DNA of 64,000 bases from positions 60,161 through 124,160 of the forward strand of contig JAOTOM010002920.1 in the NCBI GenBank assembly GCA_034440615.1, written 5' to 3'. Both the position numbers and the translations under genes were made by a program. How positions within the stretch are numbered: the first letter of the stretch is position 1; every line of letters starts with the position of its first letter. Source of the stretch: Ashinkailepas kermadecensis. Lineage: Eukaryota > Arthropoda > Thecostraca > Neolepadidae. The notes below the pieces were generated by a model. It searched no databases, was not told where the DNA came from, and saw only the letters and a list, made by a program, of their open reading frames with translations. This document shows positions 21,116 to 61,650 of this stretch, piece after piece.

Positions 21116-21721
21116 ATTAAAGATTCACACCTTAAGAGATCTTATCTCTGAAAACATTTTTGCACTCTGGGTTCATACTGGATAGGATGGACTTCACATG
21201 TACTCAGACACAAATGTGGGAACAAAAAATATCGATAAAAACAAACATAGAATGACACCCTAAAAACACTGGTTATTCCACTTATGGTCACCACTCAAAC
21301 TAACCACTTTTTGTGGCAGTCAGCAGCCAGACCCCAGCTTCACACACTCCATGAATCTCAACCACCGGAATTGCCGACAACGTGCCAACAGCAACTTGCA
21401 AGACGATGTGCATGCACACTGAGTACTGTTCTCTGGCTCTGCAGCCACGTCTCAGAAAACCTGTGTTCCTGCCACCCATATAGTGGGAAAGTTCGACAGT
21501 TTTAAGAGACATCCTCCAGAGTCCCGGAGACCACCGACCAGAATTGACTGCGTTAGCGTTTTCTGTTCCGAAATCTGTCTGCCAACCAATCAATGCAAGG
21601 TAGTTTTCATATGGCATAACCATTAGCAATTTTGAATACATGGTTAACAGTGTCATACTGCAAACACAAGACCTTGATTGATCATATGCTTTGATCACAT
21701 CCAACTGTGGCGTGTGCGGTA

Positions 21722-24700
21722 CACAGTGTGCCCAGGGCTGTCAAAAACTAATTTTGGCATATCTTTGAATGTATATGTGCTACACTGTATTTTACAGCCA
21801 TAAAGCCACAGTTTAGTATGGTGAAAACTGTTTGAAGATATCTTTAACAGTTTTTGAATGGTGACTGCCTAAACGTGCAGGACTCTCCAACATTTGGTAC
21901 ACTTTGTTTTGATATCTGAGAATACTCGACATAAATCGTAAAATTACCTATATTCAAAAGGCCCTAGCTCCAAAACTATTAAAGATAGCTTCAAATGGTT
22001 TTCACTGTTACTCCGATATACATTTCCACTTCAGAAAATGTAACAGCCATACCCTTAGACCCAAATACCCCACTTTCACCGGATGTCTGCATCAATGGAC
22101 ATGACACGGCCCTTTTGCAAGTAAATAAGAAGGACTATGGCAACTTTGAAATAGCCTGCACTTTCTTGGCATGGCTGGGTGTGCTATATATTGACATGGT
22201 GAGATGCCATATGCCTTAGGGAGTTGATGTGAGGTGGTTGTAGGGGGCCCCAATGATGCCGAGAGCTGTAATAGCCATCAGTAGGCCCCAGACCAATCTT
22301 CCAATCTTCACCAGTGAAGATTGGTGAAAATCTCGAAATTCACCTTTTTCACTCATTTGATGGCATATCTAATTTAATTACTTAGTATTAGTGTAACTGC
22401 AATTAAAAAGCACATGTTAAGGTCAAATGTTAAATTATACCGATTACCTCACAAAACACTTCACGATATTATGAAAAAAACAACATTTCATCAACGAAAA
22501 TGCAGAAATTTTATACACTGTTTTTTTTTCTCCTCTCAGCATTCTTAAACATAGATGGCTCAGTCACATGTGCTACCAACCAGGACATACATATGTGTAT
22601 CAACAGGCACACATTCTTAGACAATAATCAACCACTACCGTACAAGGCAATTATAAGTCCATCATCCTCCCCAAGAGCATTTCCGAGCCGATCGTGGTGG
22701 AGCTTGGATCGAGCAGTATGGCCTGATTCACCGCAGATACTGCACTTCAGCAGTCGACACTTAGCCACCACCACGGGATGAGTCATCTGCAGCATGCACG
22801 CCAAGATGTCTCTGAGGTTTAGCTTGACACTGTGCTGCCTTGCTCGTGCCCCACACCCACTCTTGTACCTGGACACGTTCTTATTCCAGTGCTCTTGTGC
22901 CTGCTCACTGAACACTACGATTGGTTCACTGTCTGATATCTCGAACAACTGCCAACTGTGGGCACACATGGCATGGAGAGATGGATTGACAGGGACCCAA
23001 GGACGACCATTGCTGACAAAGGCAGTGCGGATGTGGGACATGTCGATCTCTAGCTGACACAACTTGAGCGTGTCCACACCAGATCTCGTACTGCAACATG
23101 CAGACAGCATGACATTCACATCACGTAACAGAATACCATAGTTTATGCTATCACCTTCGTTCCTGATCAGCTGGCAAATCATCTCCCTGCTCTTAGGGTC
23201 AAAGAAACGTTCTGCGATTGAACCGTTGTTGGTGTTGCCACCACCAGCTGTTGGCACATCGATGAGGATGCCGAGTTTCTGGCGGATGTGGTCCTGTGCC
23301 TCCTTCTTGGAAGCATTGATGAACATGTCAGACCGACCAGCCTTACCCCAGATGTACACTCCAGCCATCAGTCGGTAGAGGAGATTGAGGACATAATCGA
23401 AAGATCGAAGCTTTCAGTGCAAAATAGCGAAATTGTTCACAGCCACAAGTGGCTTATCACACTGCCCTTCCCTATCCACACTGCTCCACATGACCTCTCC
23501 TTCATCTATCCGGCACCAAGCCTCCATGCATGAGTCGTAGTCCTTGTTGATAGTGAAGCCTTGCAGGATTATTATCAGGTTGTTCCGGTCTTCTACAGAG
23601 CTGCTGCAGTAGTGGCATTTGCTTGACCCTGTCTCCCTGCAGTATGCCAACCATTTTACCATCAACCATACTTACAGTATTGTTCACAGCAAGAGTTAAA
23701 GGCTTATTTCTGTCCGGTAGCTGAATCGCGAAGGTCTCCTTGTTGTTGATCGAGGAGAACAGGCCACCAAATTCTTTTTCAATCACTTCCTTCGACTCAG
23801 CTGCACGAACAAGTGACAAGGGCCTGGTATGGATGATTGAATTTGGTGAGGGATTTTTCCACAGCTGTACCGTTTCCCCACTGGTACTCATGACATTCAA
23901 GGATAGAGGTGCAACGCAGCATAGCAGGTGGTTGGTGTAGGTGGACGGATCAAGGTGGGGGATTCTCTTCTAGAAGAGACTGCTCGCTGTTGACCACCTG
24001 GTGTCACACTTTGTGACAGCCAGATCCGTCGATGCCAGTCTTGGCTATCAACTCTAAGGAGGCATCTATTGGTATTTTTTCTTCACAGTTTTCTGCCTTG
24101 ATGATACCTAGAACAGTATCTTGGATGAGGTCCGGGTACGTCACAGAGCACTTTATCTTGTGTGAGATGATTGATGGGTGGAGGTCCTGTTTAACAGAGT
24201 CTATGTTGTTGCGGGTGGGAAGCTCAACACCAAACTTGAGCAGGAACTGGGAGAGTTCCGTCCATGAACGACTTGAGTAACCGCCATTTAAAAAGTAGGC
24301 AACTGCCTCATCTTCAGGGATTGCCACCTGGACATTAACCTTCTGCTTCTTGGTGCGGCAGGCACTCAACAGATCTATCACGTCATCAAGGGAGACACCC
24401 TGTTGCTCTGCAAATTCGATGAGATTGTTAATGGGTTTCTCCATGATGGTAGCTGTCGTCATCCTTCCAGGGTGGTCACTGAGGCTTGGGTGGCCGACCA
24501 CCTTTTGTCTTTGATGACTCCGGAGAGACGAGGTCAGGCTGAGCAGGAGCATCTTCACCAGCAGTTTGTTCGTGCATGCCAATAAAAGGAGCAGCCAGCC
24601 ATGTCTGAAATTCAGCTGACTCCTTTGACTTTTTCGGTTTCTTCAGCCGCTGGATTTTCCGCCGAAAGGAGTCTAAATTTCCATGAATAACTGGCCACCT

Positions 24701-25129
24701 CTCCAACAGAGCAGATGTGGCAAGGCCATGGTCCCCTCCACAAATCTCCAACACTTCAAGTACATCACTGTTTGTTATCAAAAGGCTACAAGGTACGCCT
24801 CCGGTGAACATAACGTCTTTTTGCATACATCGATGGTGGTGCAATTCATTTCCACAATGGTGAGGATGAAATATTTATTTTATTATGAAATTACGATTGC
24901 TACATTCTTAACTTATTTCAAGAAATAAACTAAAAAGGGAAAAAAGTGGGAAAGGGGTTTGATTAAAAAAAAAAATTTGGCTATTGTTTTGCAAATGTTT
25001 TGTTCAGAAATGGATTATACATATAATAACGAAAACAATGAGCCCTCAACCCTGTAGTTCAGCCCTGTAGTTTGATTTTTGACCGAGCTATGAGTTTTTG
25101 ACAATTTCCGGCTGTCTGGGCACACTGTG
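21722..25129 (-). mobile_element. Transib/RAG1-like DNA transposon with RSS-like ends and 5-bp target duplication
   Basis: A 3408-bp element. Both ends begin CACAGTGTGCCCAG, perfectly inverted, and it is flanked by CGGTA at 21717-21721 and 25130-25134. Inside each end lies TCAAAAACT, 12 bp from the heptamer at the left (21741-21749) and 21 bp from it at the right (25093-25101, inverted). A minus-strand transposase pseudogene lies between. Transib and RAG elements are known for CAC-initial ends and 5-bp duplications. No RAG2/Kelch-like ORF is present, and the 0.9 kb left of the transposase shows no recognisable gene. Confidence 0.9.
22628..24844 (-). pseudogene. Transib/RAG1-like DDE transposase (decayed)
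   Basis: It is read in minus-strand blocks broken by frameshifts (near 24480, 24000-23900 and 23620) and an in-frame TGA near 23410. Landmarks in Transib/RAG1 order: a lysine-rich N-terminal block; IDGSGCHK, site of the first catalytic Asp (about 24010); WKNPSPNS and TRPLSL; MVDGK, second catalytic Asp (about 23640); KCHYC zinc-binding pair; a LLYRLM helix; GNTNNGSIAERFF; FSEQAQEHWNKNVSRYK, with the candidate catalytic Glu; and a C-terminal CSICGESGH knuckle. All three acidic residues remain, but the reading frame is broken, so this copy is probably dead. An intron at one break cannot be excluded. Confidence 0.85.
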
Positions 25130-26559
25130 CGGTAGCGGAGTTGCGTTCAATTACACAGGAAATTGGCTGTGTAGGTAGGTATGCGCTCTGAGCTGAGGGT
25201 GAAATGTGAAGTATTTTTTTTGTTTTTGATATGGCTAGCATTGTACTGAGACCAACTGTGAAAGGAAAGTACATTGCTCCTGTGAGTTATGAGAGACAAA
25301 TCAGTGCTGATTATTACGAGCAGAGTGGGAAACTTACTTTCCAGGTTGGGAGTCGGAGTGCATACCGATTTCTTCCGGAGTACATTTTCATGGACATTAT
25401 TATTTTACGCATGGAATCTGTTCACCAGTAACCAACCGGAAAAAACTTAAATCAGTACCTACATAATGTGCATAAGTAATATTCTCATTTTTGGTCAAAT
25501 CAAATGCCAAAACATACGAACAAAGAAGTAAACAATGGATGGCACCGCCCGGCAGTGACCCGTAATAATCAGCACCGTTTCGTTTCTTATAACTCACAGG
25601 AGAAATGTGTTCTCCTTTTACTGTTGGTCTCAGTACAAGGCTAGCCATATGAAAAACAAACAAAAATACTTCACACTTCACCCTCAGCTCAGAGCGCATA
25701 CCTACCTACGGAGCCAATTTCCCACGTAATATGAACGCAACTCTGCTACTGCACACGCCAGTTGGATGTGATCAAAGCAAAGGATCAGTCAAGGTCTTGT
25801 GTTTACTGTTAACTTGTGGACATTGTTAACCATGTGTTCAAAGTTGCTAATGGTTATGACATCATATACAAAATACCTTGTATTGATTCATCGACAGATT
25901 TCAGAACAGAACACGCTAACACAGCCAATTCTGATTGGTGGCCTTAGGGACTCTGGAGTCTCTTAAAACTGTCAAAGTTTCCCACTATGGGGTGGCAGGA
26001 ACACACATATTCCGAGATGTGGCTCCAGAGCCGGAGAAGTGTTCTCAGTGCGCATGCGCATCATCTTGCAAGTCGCTGTTGGCTCGGTGTTGTCAGCAAT
26101 TCCAGTGGTTGAGATTGATGGAGTGTGTGAAGCTGTGGTCTGGCTGCTGACTGCTAGTGATTAGTTTGAGTGGTAACCATACATGGAATAACCAGCGTTT
26201 TTTTGGGTCGTTCTGTTTGTTTTTATTGATATCTTTGTTCCCACATTTGTGTCGGAGTACATGTGAAGCCCATCCTATCCAGTATGAACCTGGAGTGCAA
26301 AAATGTTTTCAGAGATAAAATCTCTTAAGAAGTGCCTTAATCCCCACCATCATTGCGAGTCACTGCCGGGCAGTGCCATCCATTCCTCACTTCTTTGCTC
26401 CTATGTTTTGATATTTGATTTGATGACAAATGAGAATGCAAATTACATATGCATATTATGTAGGTACTGATTACATAGGTTTTTCCAGTTGGTTACTGGT
26501 AAACAGATTCCATGCATTAAAAAATAATGTCCATGAAAATGTACTCCGGAAGAAGTTGG

Positions 26560-28083: not shown

Positions 28084-29572
28084 AAAGACATAAAAGTCAT
28101 AAAGTCATAAAGTATTAAGGCTTAATAAGAGCCACAGGGGCCCATCTGGGTTAAGCCTATCTAGAAAAGGTACTAGAATGTACATACTCCCACCCCAATC
28201 AATCCCTTATCCCAAGTTCCTAGGAAGCTATATATCCCAGCCCATCTAACACCACTCACTTGCTACCGCCTAACACCCTCAATAATCACAAGCTCCTCCC
28301 ATCACACCCATCGTGCCACCATAGACAACCTCATCAGCATCACATCCCGAAGGAAGGTGCCGAATCCACTGCTAGGCACATCCCACAGAAATTCATAAAG
28401 CGTTCAGACTTAATAAGAGACTCACTTGCTATTGCATAATACACTCAACAATTACAAACTCCTCCCATCATACCCATTGTGCTACCATAGACAATCTCAT
28501 CAGTATCACATCCCGAAGGAAGGTGCTGAATCCACTGCTAGGTACACCCTATATAAAGTTATAAAGCATTTAGACTTAATAAGAGACTCACTTGCTATTT
28601 CATAACACAGTCAACAATTACAAACTCCTCCCAACTCCCACTCCTCCCTGTCGATCAACCTTCCCGGGAATACAGAAAAACAATCCCCCTATTCTTATAA
28701 TGATTGTCTATGCCATTTTTAAAGATGTTCAGTGTGTTGCTACTGACAATGGTTCCTGGCAGCTGGTTCCAGTGTTCTACTACCCTGTTGGTGAAGAAAG
28801 ACTGTCTTAACCTTGTCCTGCTGTGATTAACTTTAATTTTGAATTGATGACCTCTAATTGCATCATTTCTGTTAAATTCAAACATTTCCCTGAGATATCC
28901 CTGTTCCTGACCATGAACAAATTTAAAAACCTCGATGAGATCTCCTCTCAGCCTTCTATATCTAAGTGAAAACATGTTCAATTTCTTCAGTCTTTCCTCA
29001 TATTCCAGGTTGCCTATACCATTAACCATTTTTGTTGCCCTCTTTTGTACTCTCTCTAAAAGCCAACAATCTTTCTCATAACTAGGGGACCAAGCTTGGA
29101 CACAGTATTCCAAATGTGGCCTGACATATGCACAGTAAAGCTTCCTGATGACCTCCTCACTTTTGTATGACACATTCCTCTGTATTTCCCCGAGCATTCT
29201 TAGTGCCTTCTTCCTGGCTTCTTTGGTCTGTTCTGATGCCCCCAATTTTGTGTTCAAAATAACACCTAAGTCCTTCTCCTGCTGAGTCACAGATAGTACT
29301 TGGCCACCCATCAAGTATGGAGCCTTCATATGCTGCCTACCTACATGCATGACTTTGCACTTATCAAAATTAAACTTCATTTGCCATTTTTCGGACCACT
29401 TCACTAGCTCGTCTAAGTCTTTCTGCAGCAAAACCTGCTCATTTTGCCCTGTTATTGCCCTAAAGATCTTCAAATCATCCACAAATTTCAAAACCTTACT
29501 GCTTAGGCCACATTCAATGCTATTCACATATATAATGAACAATGGACATAAAAGATCAGTGCAACTATGAGC
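28084..29572 (-). mobile_element. CR1-like LINE copy A, 5'-truncated
   Basis: A minus-strand ORF (from about 29550 to 28655) covers the RT palm with FVDD in place of FADD, the thumb, and the C-terminal region ending NHYKNRG. Its 3' UTR (28650-28084) contains two copies of a 175-bp direct repeat and ends in repeated TTATGACTT-type sequence, a microsatellite-like LINE tail. It is truncated before the endonuclease, and a hAT-like element is inserted at its 5' side. Confidence 0.88.
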
Positions 29573-29580
29573 CACAAGGG

Positions 29581-30061
29581 CAGTGTTAAAATAAAGGTTT
29601 TCCGTTAGGTGTGAGATGTCGCAATGAACACAGTAGGATGTCGCAATTTGCCATAGAATTGGTGTCATTTGAAATGCTTTTGATGTCTTTCAGACTCAAA
29701 TTTGATCCAATGGTATACTTATGACTGCATCTTTATCATTCCTTTTAAGATTCATAATTTAGGAAGAGTTATATTTGGGATAGGAAGAAGAATGCCTATG
29801 CTATAAAATGGTATTGTATGCCATATCACATTATAAGCAACCCCTTTACCTGACATTGTGTTGCAAAATGTTTGTGTATTACCATTCCCTATCGATAGCA
29901 TGAGCATGATACTTATAAATGAGATACTGTTAGAAAGGAGACAGGAAGACTTTGTAAGCATGCATCAAGAAGCAGGATGTCGATACTTCTTGGATAATGA
30001 TGTTGATTGAGTGTTCATAAAGTGGTATATTCCACCCTATTTCATGAATAATGTATCACTG
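29581..30061. mobile_element. hAT-like non-autonomous DNA element (481 bp)
   Basis: It begins CAGTGTTAAAA and ends ATGTATCACTG (inverted CAGTGATACAT), flanked by the 8-bp duplication CACAAGGG (29573-29580 and 30062-30069). Its sequence is shared with 38090-38395. An 8-bp duplication and CAGTG ends fit the hAT superfamily. It has no transposase. Confidence 0.85.
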
Positions 30062-30122
30062 CACAAGGGCCCTTCTTGGTTGCACTCTGTACACTGAACC
30101 AGTTGTCCACCAAATGTGTTGA

Positions 30123-33100
30123 TCAACTCTCCCTGGAATACAGAAAAACAAGCCCCCTATTCTTATAATGATTGTCTATGCTGTTCTTAAAGATGTTCAG
30201 TGTGTTGCTGCTGACAATGGTTTCTGGCAGCTGGTTACAGTGTTCTACTACCCTGTTGGTGAGGAAGGACTGTCTTAACCTTGTCCTGCTGTAATTAACT
30301 TTAATTTTGAATTGATGACCTCTAAGTGCATCATTTCTGTTAAATTCAAACAGTTCCCTGAGATAACCCTGTTCCTGACCAGGAACAAATTTAAAGACCT
30401 CGATGAGATCTCCTCGCAGCCTTCTATATCTAAGTGAAAACATATTCAATTTCTTCAATCTTTCCTCATATGCCAGGTTGCCCATACCATTCACCATTTT
30501 TGTTGCCCTCTTTTGTACTCTCTCTAAAAGCCAACAATATTTTTCATAACTAGGGGACCAAGCTTGGACACAATATTCCAGATGTGGCCTAACATATGCA
30601 CAATAAAGCTTCCTGATGACTTCCTCACTTTTGTATGATACATTCCTATTTATTGCCCCAAGCATTCTTAGTGCCTTCTTCCTGGCTTCTTTGGTCTGTT
30701 CTGATGCCCGTAATTTTGTGTTCAAAATAACACCTAAGTCCTTCTCCTGCTGAGTCACAGATAGTACTTGGCCACCCATCAAGTATGGAGCCTTGATATG
30801 CTGCCCACCTACATGCATGATTTTGCACTTATCAAAATTAAATTTCATTTGCCATTTTTCGGACCACTTCACGAGCTCGTCTAAGTCTTTCTGCAGCAAG
30901 ACCTGCTCATTGTGCCCTGTTATTGCCCTAAGGACCTTCAAATCATCTGCAAATTTCAAAACCTTACTGCTTAGGCCACTTTCAATGTTATTTACAAACA
31001 TAATGAACAGTAGTGGTCCCAGTACTGACCCCTGGGGGACTCCACTAAGAACATTTTGCCATGATGATTTTGTACCATTTAGCATCACTCTCTGCTGTCT
31101 ATCTGAAAGCCCTATCTATTTTAGGATGTTAACCACAATACCATGGGCCTGAAGCTGCATCATTAACTGTTTATGAGGTACCTTGTCAAAGGCCTTGCTA
31201 AAGTCAAGATATGCTACATCAACCTGATTTCCCTTATCAAATTGTTCTGTAGCAAAATTAAAAAAGTCCAAGAGATTTGTGAGACATGATCGCCCTTTTC
31301 TAAACCCATGTTGAGTATCTTGAATCACTCTGTTTGCTTCCAGAAAACTAACTATTTTATCCTTGATAATTGATTCAAGTACCTTGCAGACTAGTGATGT
31401 GAGGCTTACTGGCCTATGGTTTTCAACTTTCCCTCTTTCTCCTTTCTTGAAAATAGGAACTATATTTGCCCTTTTCCAATCGGTTGGAATTTCATTTTGT
31501 GAAACTGATCTACAAAATATTATACGGAGTGGAATTGCCAATTCTTTTTCAGCTTCCCGCAACACCCTAGCATAAATTCCATCAGGTCCTGCTGCCTTGT
31601 TTTGCTTTATTTTCCTGACATAATTCAAAACAACATCACTGTCAATGAAATCAACATCATGTAACTGATCACCTGTTGCTGAGCTGTGGTTCACAGTTGG
31701 CAGATTAGTCACATCCTCCAATGTAAACACTGATTTAAACTGCTTGCTCAATTCCTCAACCATCTCACCATCCTCACTCAATATAATCCCATTTACTTCC
31801 AGTGGACCAATTGTGCTTGAAACTTTACTTAGCTTGTAGAAACTAAATAACTTTTTACTCTCCCCATTACAGTTCCTAGCCAAATCCAATTCTTTTGCTC
31901 GCTTTGCTGCTCTGGTTTTCTGCTTCACAGCATCTCTGGCTTTTTGATACGACCTTAGATTTACTATATTTGAAGCTTCCTTAAATACTCTAAATGCATC
32001 TTTCTTATCCTTAATTGCTTTTGTCAAATCTGGTGTAAGCCATGCCGGCTTTCCTATTCTTCTTTGCGCCTTTGCTTTTGGAGGACATGTCTAATCTGAA
32101 TTTCCCTCAAGTAAGATTTGAACTTTTCCCACATTTCACAGGCATTTAAATCGGAGAATTCTGCTTCCCATTTTATGGCACTTAAAGCCGCTCTCATGCA
32201 GTCAAAGTCTTCCCTGTTAAAATTTGGAACCTTTGCCAAATTATCCTTGATTGTCCCTGCTACATGTGCATTGAATCTCACTATGTCCATCTCCATCTCA
32301 CCATCCTCACTCAATATAGTGCCATTTACTTCCAGTGGACCAATTGTGCTTGAAACTTTACGTAGCTTGTAGAAACTAAATAACTTTTTACTGTCCCCAT
32401 TACAGTTCCTAGCCAAATCCAATTCTTTTGCCCGCCTTGCTGCTCTGGTTTTCTGCTTCACAGCATCTCTAGCTTTTTGATACGACCGTAGATTTACGAC
32501 ATTTGAAGCTTCCTTAAATACTCTAAATGCATCTTTCTTAGCCTTAATTGATCTCCTCAAATCTGCTGTAAGCCATGCTGGCTTTCCTACACTTCTTTTG
32601 CGCCTTTGCTTTTGGGGGACATGTCTAATCTGAATTTCCCTCAAGTAAGATTTGAACTTTTCCCACATTTCACAGGCATTTAAATCAAGAAATTCTTCTT
32701 CCCATTGCATGGCACTTAAAGCCTCTCTCATGGAGTCAAAGTCTGCCCTGTTAAAATTTGGAATCTTTGCCAAGTTATCCTTGATTGTCCCTGCTATTTG
32801 TACCTTAAATTTCACTATGTTATGGTCACTTCTTCCCAGAGTTTCTCCCACAGTCAAGTCTTGAACTAAATCACTTAAATCCGAGAAGACAAGGTCCAAG
32901 AATGAGCCCTGCCTAGTTGGTTCTGTTACAAACTGGTGTAAGAACAGGTCCTCTTCAAGGCATTTCCTAAACAGTTTACATGCTGGGGAGCTAACACCAA
33001 CATTTTCATATCCTTTTAGATTAAAGTCACCAAGAATAAGGCATTTCCTCTGAAAGTTTCTACTGATTTCCTCACAAATCACCTAATCAAGCTCCAGTTG

Positions 33101-36498: not shown

Positions 36499-61650
<25,152 letters not shown>

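Follow-up and report, generated by a model that had tools for sequence, protein, structure and literature searches.

RAG pairs a 12-signal with a 23-signal, and why V(D)J recombination needs both is an old question. It is raised anew by a Transib transposon in the barnacle Ashinkailepas kermadecensis, which lies in a window of 64,000 nucleotides (assembly GCA_034440615.1, contig JAOTOM010002920.1, positions 60,161 to 124,160 of the forward strand). An earlier note, made from the letters of this window, had described a RAG1-like element whose two ends resemble recombination signals with unequal spacers. We asked whether this asymmetry belongs to a family of elements, which kind of transposase goes with it, and how it compares with the ends of known systems.

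The element occupies positions 21722 to 25129 of the window and measures 3,408 bp. Both of its tips carry the same 14-bp inverted repeat, CACAGTGTGCCCAG, which is perfect, as had been claimed, and starts with the heptamer CACAGTG. Behind the repeat, both ends contain an 11-bp block, TGTCAAAAACT, that begins at position 18 counted from the left tip and at position 27 counted from the right, so that its two copies are offset by 9 bp. The nonamer-like sequence TCAAAAACT, the part of this block that had been noticed before, is separated from the left heptamer by 12 bp and from the right heptamer by 21 bp. Such a block is rarely shared by chance: of 19,439 pairs of 46-bp pieces drawn at random from inside the element, 3 had an exact shared block of at least 11 bp. 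The 5-bp target site duplication (TSD) CGGTA that the earlier note placed on both flanks was found as well. The element sits in a repeat, whose other copy in the window runs through the junction with a single CAGTA. Because this paralogous repeat lacks the element and has only the one CAGTA, it demonstrates insertion of the element with duplication of 5 bp. All of these features are listed in Table 1.

Aligning further copies from the genome, the check that the earlier note had proposed, extended this geometry beyond the window. The genome as searched comprises 907.7 Mb in 4,689 contigs, and its COX1 shares 99% identity over 446 residues with that of Leucolepas longa, another neolepadid barnacle. 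It yielded five copies, which is a lower bound: the window copy and four others (L063, L064, L065, and L066). Spacers of 12 and 21 bp are present in all five. The left heptamer is CACAGTG in every copy and the right heptamer in four, with CACAATG in L064. An exact 5-bp duplication flanks four copies (CGGTA, TGATG, CAATG, and CAACG). The flanks of L065 match imperfectly (CACCAC versus CACCAG) and contain no exact 5-bp duplication; its left junction has possibly gained one base. Since the flanking duplications differ, the five copies represent separate insertions, and since copies with different flanks all share the 12/21 spacing, that spacing is not an accident of one copy, which disposes of the chance 9-bp indel in one copy that had been raised as an alternative. 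A search of the genome for short nonautonomous derivatives, made with both ends, returned no more than the five copies already described, with counts that are again lower bounds. The 14-bp repeat was also scanned in 2.9 million viral contigs, where 54 stretches had a single match each and none had paired ends; we took these matches as chance.

The genome holds several further Transib families, and three of these served as controls. A protein search of the genome with P0001, a homologue of the transposase described below, gave 67 matches, and three families were read to both ends: X (three copies), Y (two copies), and Z (two copies). Their 5-bp duplications are CAATG, CGTCG, and CAGCG for X, CACCG and CAGCG for Y, and CATTG and CGCTG for Z. 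The blocks common to their two ends have a shift of 0, so that their ends are symmetric, and the asymmetry of the window element is thus not general to the Transibs of this host. A-rich blocks lie at spacers of about 22 to 23 bp in X and Y and of 12 bp in Z, and AAAAACT-like cores occur in Z, at spacer 12, and in the left end of Y, at spacer 23. Nonamer scores of X, Z, and the right end of Y do not rise above those of shuffled sequences, and the best score in the right end of X falls elsewhere, at spacer 2. Because the scores are uninformative there, the spacer values of the three families rest on end-to-end comparison. Among the loci examined (L075 to L096 except L089), families X and Y are represented by six near-identical copies apiece, about 96 to 99.8% identical where aligned, which suggests recent activity of both.

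The internal gene encodes a DDE transposase homologous to HzTransib and RAG1, as had been claimed, but in the window copy it is broken, which had gone unsaid: its coding sequence is spread over three frames and contains two in-frame stops. Its C-terminal open reading frame (ORF) matches HzTransib (PDB code 6pqn; E = 1e-7), and Pfam searches with the gene pieces of this copy gave only matches below the cutoff, zinc knuckles among these. L064 has an uninterrupted frame of 733 codons, in which the position following the first catalytic Asp is altered (DRSG versus DGSG in homologues), and the gene of L063 has one internal stop. Directly upstream of the gene, L063, L064, and L065 (in a shorter form) contain about 0.36 kb that is absent from the window copy near 24781 and to which L066 gave no match either; in the three copies that have it, this stretch is partly GC-rich and locally repeated. 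Eleven proteins of the same clade were found (P0001 to P0007 and P0010 to P0013), among them P0012 from the krill Meganyctiphanes norvegica, and the ten others are 41 to 63% identical to P0001. Full-length members carry the motifs DGSG, DGKM, and SEQ-Q-E-WNK. A profile of six homologues matched HzTransib at 2.8e-20 and BbRAG1L at 3.6e-5, while its match to vertebrate RAG1 (0.086) was not significant. The predicted structure of P0001, a homologue and not the window copy, had 49 matches in the PDB at E ≤ 0.001, all of them chains of RAG1, BbRAG1L, or HzTransib.

Together with inverted repeats that start with CAC and a 5-bp TSD, this homology to the HzTransib/RAG1 core places the element in the Transib superfamily, which Tao et al. 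2022 (PMC9435367) split in two. Subgroup I retains a region like alpha11-alpha12 of RAG1, has the zinc tail CTT1, and is reported always to have asymmetric terminal inverted repeats (TIRs); Subgroup II has lost the alpha11-alpha12 region and has another tail (CTT2) and ends of both kinds (PMC9435367). In our alignment, a zinc-region insert of about 45 residues, as in RAG1 and BbRAG1L, is present in the family of the window element (represented by copy L064) and in all 10 aligned homologues, and it is absent from X, Y, Z, P0009, and P0014; we equate it with alpha11-alpha12 by alignment only. The same five lack the zinc tail C-x2-C-x3-GH, which L064 shares with 9 of the 10 homologues (P0011 ends earlier). 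The published tail pattern of RAG1L is Cx2Cx3GHx4C (excerpt of PMC7204232), and in this clade its last Cys is replaced by a later His. A tree built without published Subgroup I sequences resolved the clade with support of 97/98 and grouped X, Y, Z, HzTransib, P0009, and P0014 at 85/83. These features suggest membership in Subgroup I, with two of its four marks clearly present (the insert and the asymmetric TIRs) and one in part (the CTT1 tail). On the fourth mark, a kinship to RAG1L closer than that of Subgroup II, the tree gave separate clades under a midpoint root, with RAG1 as a long branch. The published Subgroup I elements likewise have the RAG1 alpha11-alpha12-matching insert, a CTT1-like zinc tail, and asymmetric TIRs (PMC9435367); the element studied here differs from them in its barnacle host and in the altered end of its tail. 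HzTransib (6pqn) and other Subgroup II Transibs share with it a homologous DDE transposase, heptamer-like tips, and a 5-bp TSD, whereas they lack the alpha11-alpha12 region and have the CTT2 tail (PMC9435367).

The insert is common to RAG1 and BbRAG1L, and the zinc tail resembles that described for RAG1L (excerpt of PMC7204232), both of which would also fit a RAGL/ProtoRAG transposon, with RAG1 and RAG2 genes, that lost RAG2. We consider such an origin very improbable. The clade stands apart from RAG1/BbRAG1L, whose branch has support of 100/100, in a tree with a midpoint root only and a long RAG1 branch. The mark of RAGL/ProtoRAG elements, a RAG2L gene beside RAG1L, was not found: the three other ORFs tested in L063 and L064 (89, 155, and 214 amino acids) match no Pfam family. 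In keeping with the earlier note, no RAG2-like partner was recognized in the element. A RAG1 family search of the genome, run without a positive control, was also blank.

Compared with the vertebrate recombination signal sequences (RSSs), the element has an identical heptamer, a nonamer matching at 7 of 9 positions, and one 12-bp spacer in common. By definition, however, the spacers of a 12/23 RSS pair are 12 and 23 ± 1 bp, and the other spacer here is 21 bp in all five copies; moreover, these are ends of a transposon and not of gene segments, in an element in which no RAG2 was found. Most Transib families, HzTransib included, are called symmetric-ended (excerpt of PMC8289069), but asymmetry in a Transib is not new, because Kapitonov and Jurka 2005 (via an excerpt of PMC8355894) and PMC9435367 report it. 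The former described asymmetric heptamer-spacer-nonamer ends in Drosophila Transib5 and in Anopheles Transib2 and N1 to N3, with spacers of 12 and 23 (±1) bp where ours are 12 and 21 (via an excerpt of PMC8355894). The RSS-like 12/21 ends are real; the bearing on the origin of the 12/23 rule that the earlier note gave to asymmetry as such was overstated. The ends of lancelet ProtoRAG are also asymmetric and bipartite, and there the asymmetry was shown to matter for activity; ProtoRAG differs in its spacers of 27 and 31 bp, its inner element GCCATCTTG, and the RAG2L that it carries (excerpt of PMC8289069). A literature search on Transib and barnacle returned one paper, on a dog whelk genome.

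A likeness in geometry is to AanRAGL of the alga Aureococcus anophagefferens, a comparison made after seeing the data and from a published text description. Each AanRAGL end is made of two elements, 13 bp and 10 bp long, of which the second reads CCTCAA[C/T]A[C/T]G; the gap separating them is 4 or 13 bp (PMC9435367). From this text we derive positions 18 and 27 as the starts of the second element, the same as in the barnacle element, and distances of 12 and 21 bp from the first seven bases to its TCAA; the TSD is 5 bp in both. AanRAGL differs in carrying RAG1L and RAG2L genes and in its first element, CACACCCAAACCT as opposed to CACAGTGTGCCCAG. What is new here is this agreement in the starting positions of the second motif, hinting at an old 12/21 geometry, which may already be in print among the published Subgroup I ends (figure of PMC9435367).

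The two ends and their spacing, the insertion that duplicated 5 bp, the homology to RAG1 and Transib, the zinc-region insert, and the zinc tail are all observed. We conclude that the window element is probably a relic of a small Transib family with a RAG1-type transposase, and that its unequal ends likely allow the transposase to pair a short end with a long one. A dimer of the transposase would place its catalytic core on the heptamer and its N-terminal part, which resembles a nonamer-binding domain (NBD) and has a GRP motif, on the TCAAAAACT block. HzTransib is reported to form a hairpin on the flanking DNA and to leave the transposon with a blunt end, as RAG does (excerpt of PMC6941560), and by homology this transposase would also cleave by nick and hairpin. 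It would prefer unlike ends, pairing the 12-end with the 21-end.

Several observations weigh against this interpretation. On the protein side, the P0001 model is of moderate confidence (predicted local distance difference test [pLDDT] score of 65.9), its strong matches have query-length template modeling (TM) scores of 0.30 to 0.50, and the alignment of the NBD-like part to RAG1 is below significance (−3.3 bits). Encoded relatives sought in viral and prokaryotic contigs gave none, and within the clade the ends were read for five copies of one genome. Nonamer likeness, put forward in the earlier note as 7 of 9 matching positions, stands as a count but is weak at each end alone. Over spacers of 0 to 39 bp, the best nonamer score was equalled by shuffled ends in 49 of 2,000 cases on the left and in 610 of 2,000 on the right, and another nonamer-like block, TCAAAAATC, which also matches at 7 of 9 positions, lies at spacer 40 of the right end (25074 to 25082, minus strand). 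The frequency with which shuffles reach the right-end score and the equally good match at spacer 40 would be expected if the block bound no protein and were A-rich sequence, common by chance or retained as part of a transposon end. We regard that account as distinctly unlikely, given the rarity of an 11-bp shared block among internal pairs and the AAAAACT-like cores at spacers 12 and 23 in Z and in the left end of Y.

The copies themselves supply the remaining objection. They are 97.4 to 99.1% identical over the left 1.9 kb (about 1 to 3% diverged), too similar to demonstrate selection keeping the spacing, which may reflect recent common descent only; five copies less than 3% or so diverged, with a weak nonamer, do not demonstrate a functional constraint. 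The 9-bp difference could accordingly be a neutral indel in the founder of a young family, with the 14-bp inverted repeat sufficient for transposition and the inner block a remnant of a longer symmetric repeat. The low divergence fits such a history, as do the symmetric blocks in the corresponding places of X, Y, and Z and the proposal that protostome RAGL transposons rely on the terminal 15 to 17 bp (excerpt of PMC7204232). It has to contend with the asymmetric TIRs reported for all Subgroup I Transibs and with the same starts, 18 and 27, in AanRAGL (PMC9435367), and we consider it rather unlikely. Because the published description of AanRAGL puts the second motif at these positions, an old age can be inferred for the 12/21 geometry. 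We entertain only tentatively, with more doubt than confidence, the further proposal that the RAG1/Subgroup I lineage started out, before RAG2, with ends of the 12/21 design found in the barnacle Transib and AanRAGL, and that the 12/23 rule is a later adjustment by 2 bp.

Table 1. Features of the Transib element and its flanks, in window coordinates
Feature	Positions	Strand	Remarks
Left target site duplication CGGTA	21717-21721	.	From sequence and empty site
Left terminal inverted repeat CACAGTGTGCCCAG	21722-21735	+	Heptamer CACAGTG at 21722-21728
Left shared block TGTCAAAAACT	21739-21749	+	Nonamer-like TCAAAAACT at 21741-21749, spacer 12
Broken Transib transposase gene	22628-24778	-	Upstream boundary set by the match to P0001
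Right shared block TGTCAAAAACT	25093-25103	-	Nonamer-like TCAAAAACT at 25093-25101, spacer 21
Right terminal inverted repeat CACAGTGTGCCCAG	25116-25129	-	Heptamer at 25123-25129
Right target site duplication CGGTA	25130-25134	.	From sequence and empty site
Paralogous flanking repeat lacking the insertion (empty site)	25561-25968	-	CAGTA at the junction

Two other repeats of the window were observed. Of the 85 CACAGTG heptamers on the minus strand of the window, 77 fall in a long minisatellite at 56822 to 59942, with a unit spacing of 38 bp, and these are repeat units, not signals. On the minus strand, positions 28655 to 33082 hold repeated ORFs that resemble, as recognized by eye, the reverse transcriptase of a non-long terminal repeat (non-LTR) retrotransposon.

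Collectively, one genome contains Transibs with matched ends alongside one unmatched 12/21 Transib, whose transposase has RAG1-type zinc features and in which no RAG2 gene was recognized. Such a set is suited to asking whether a preference for unlike ends predates RAG2, and, given the match to the geometry of AanRAGL, an ancient origin could be checked directly in a few more species.
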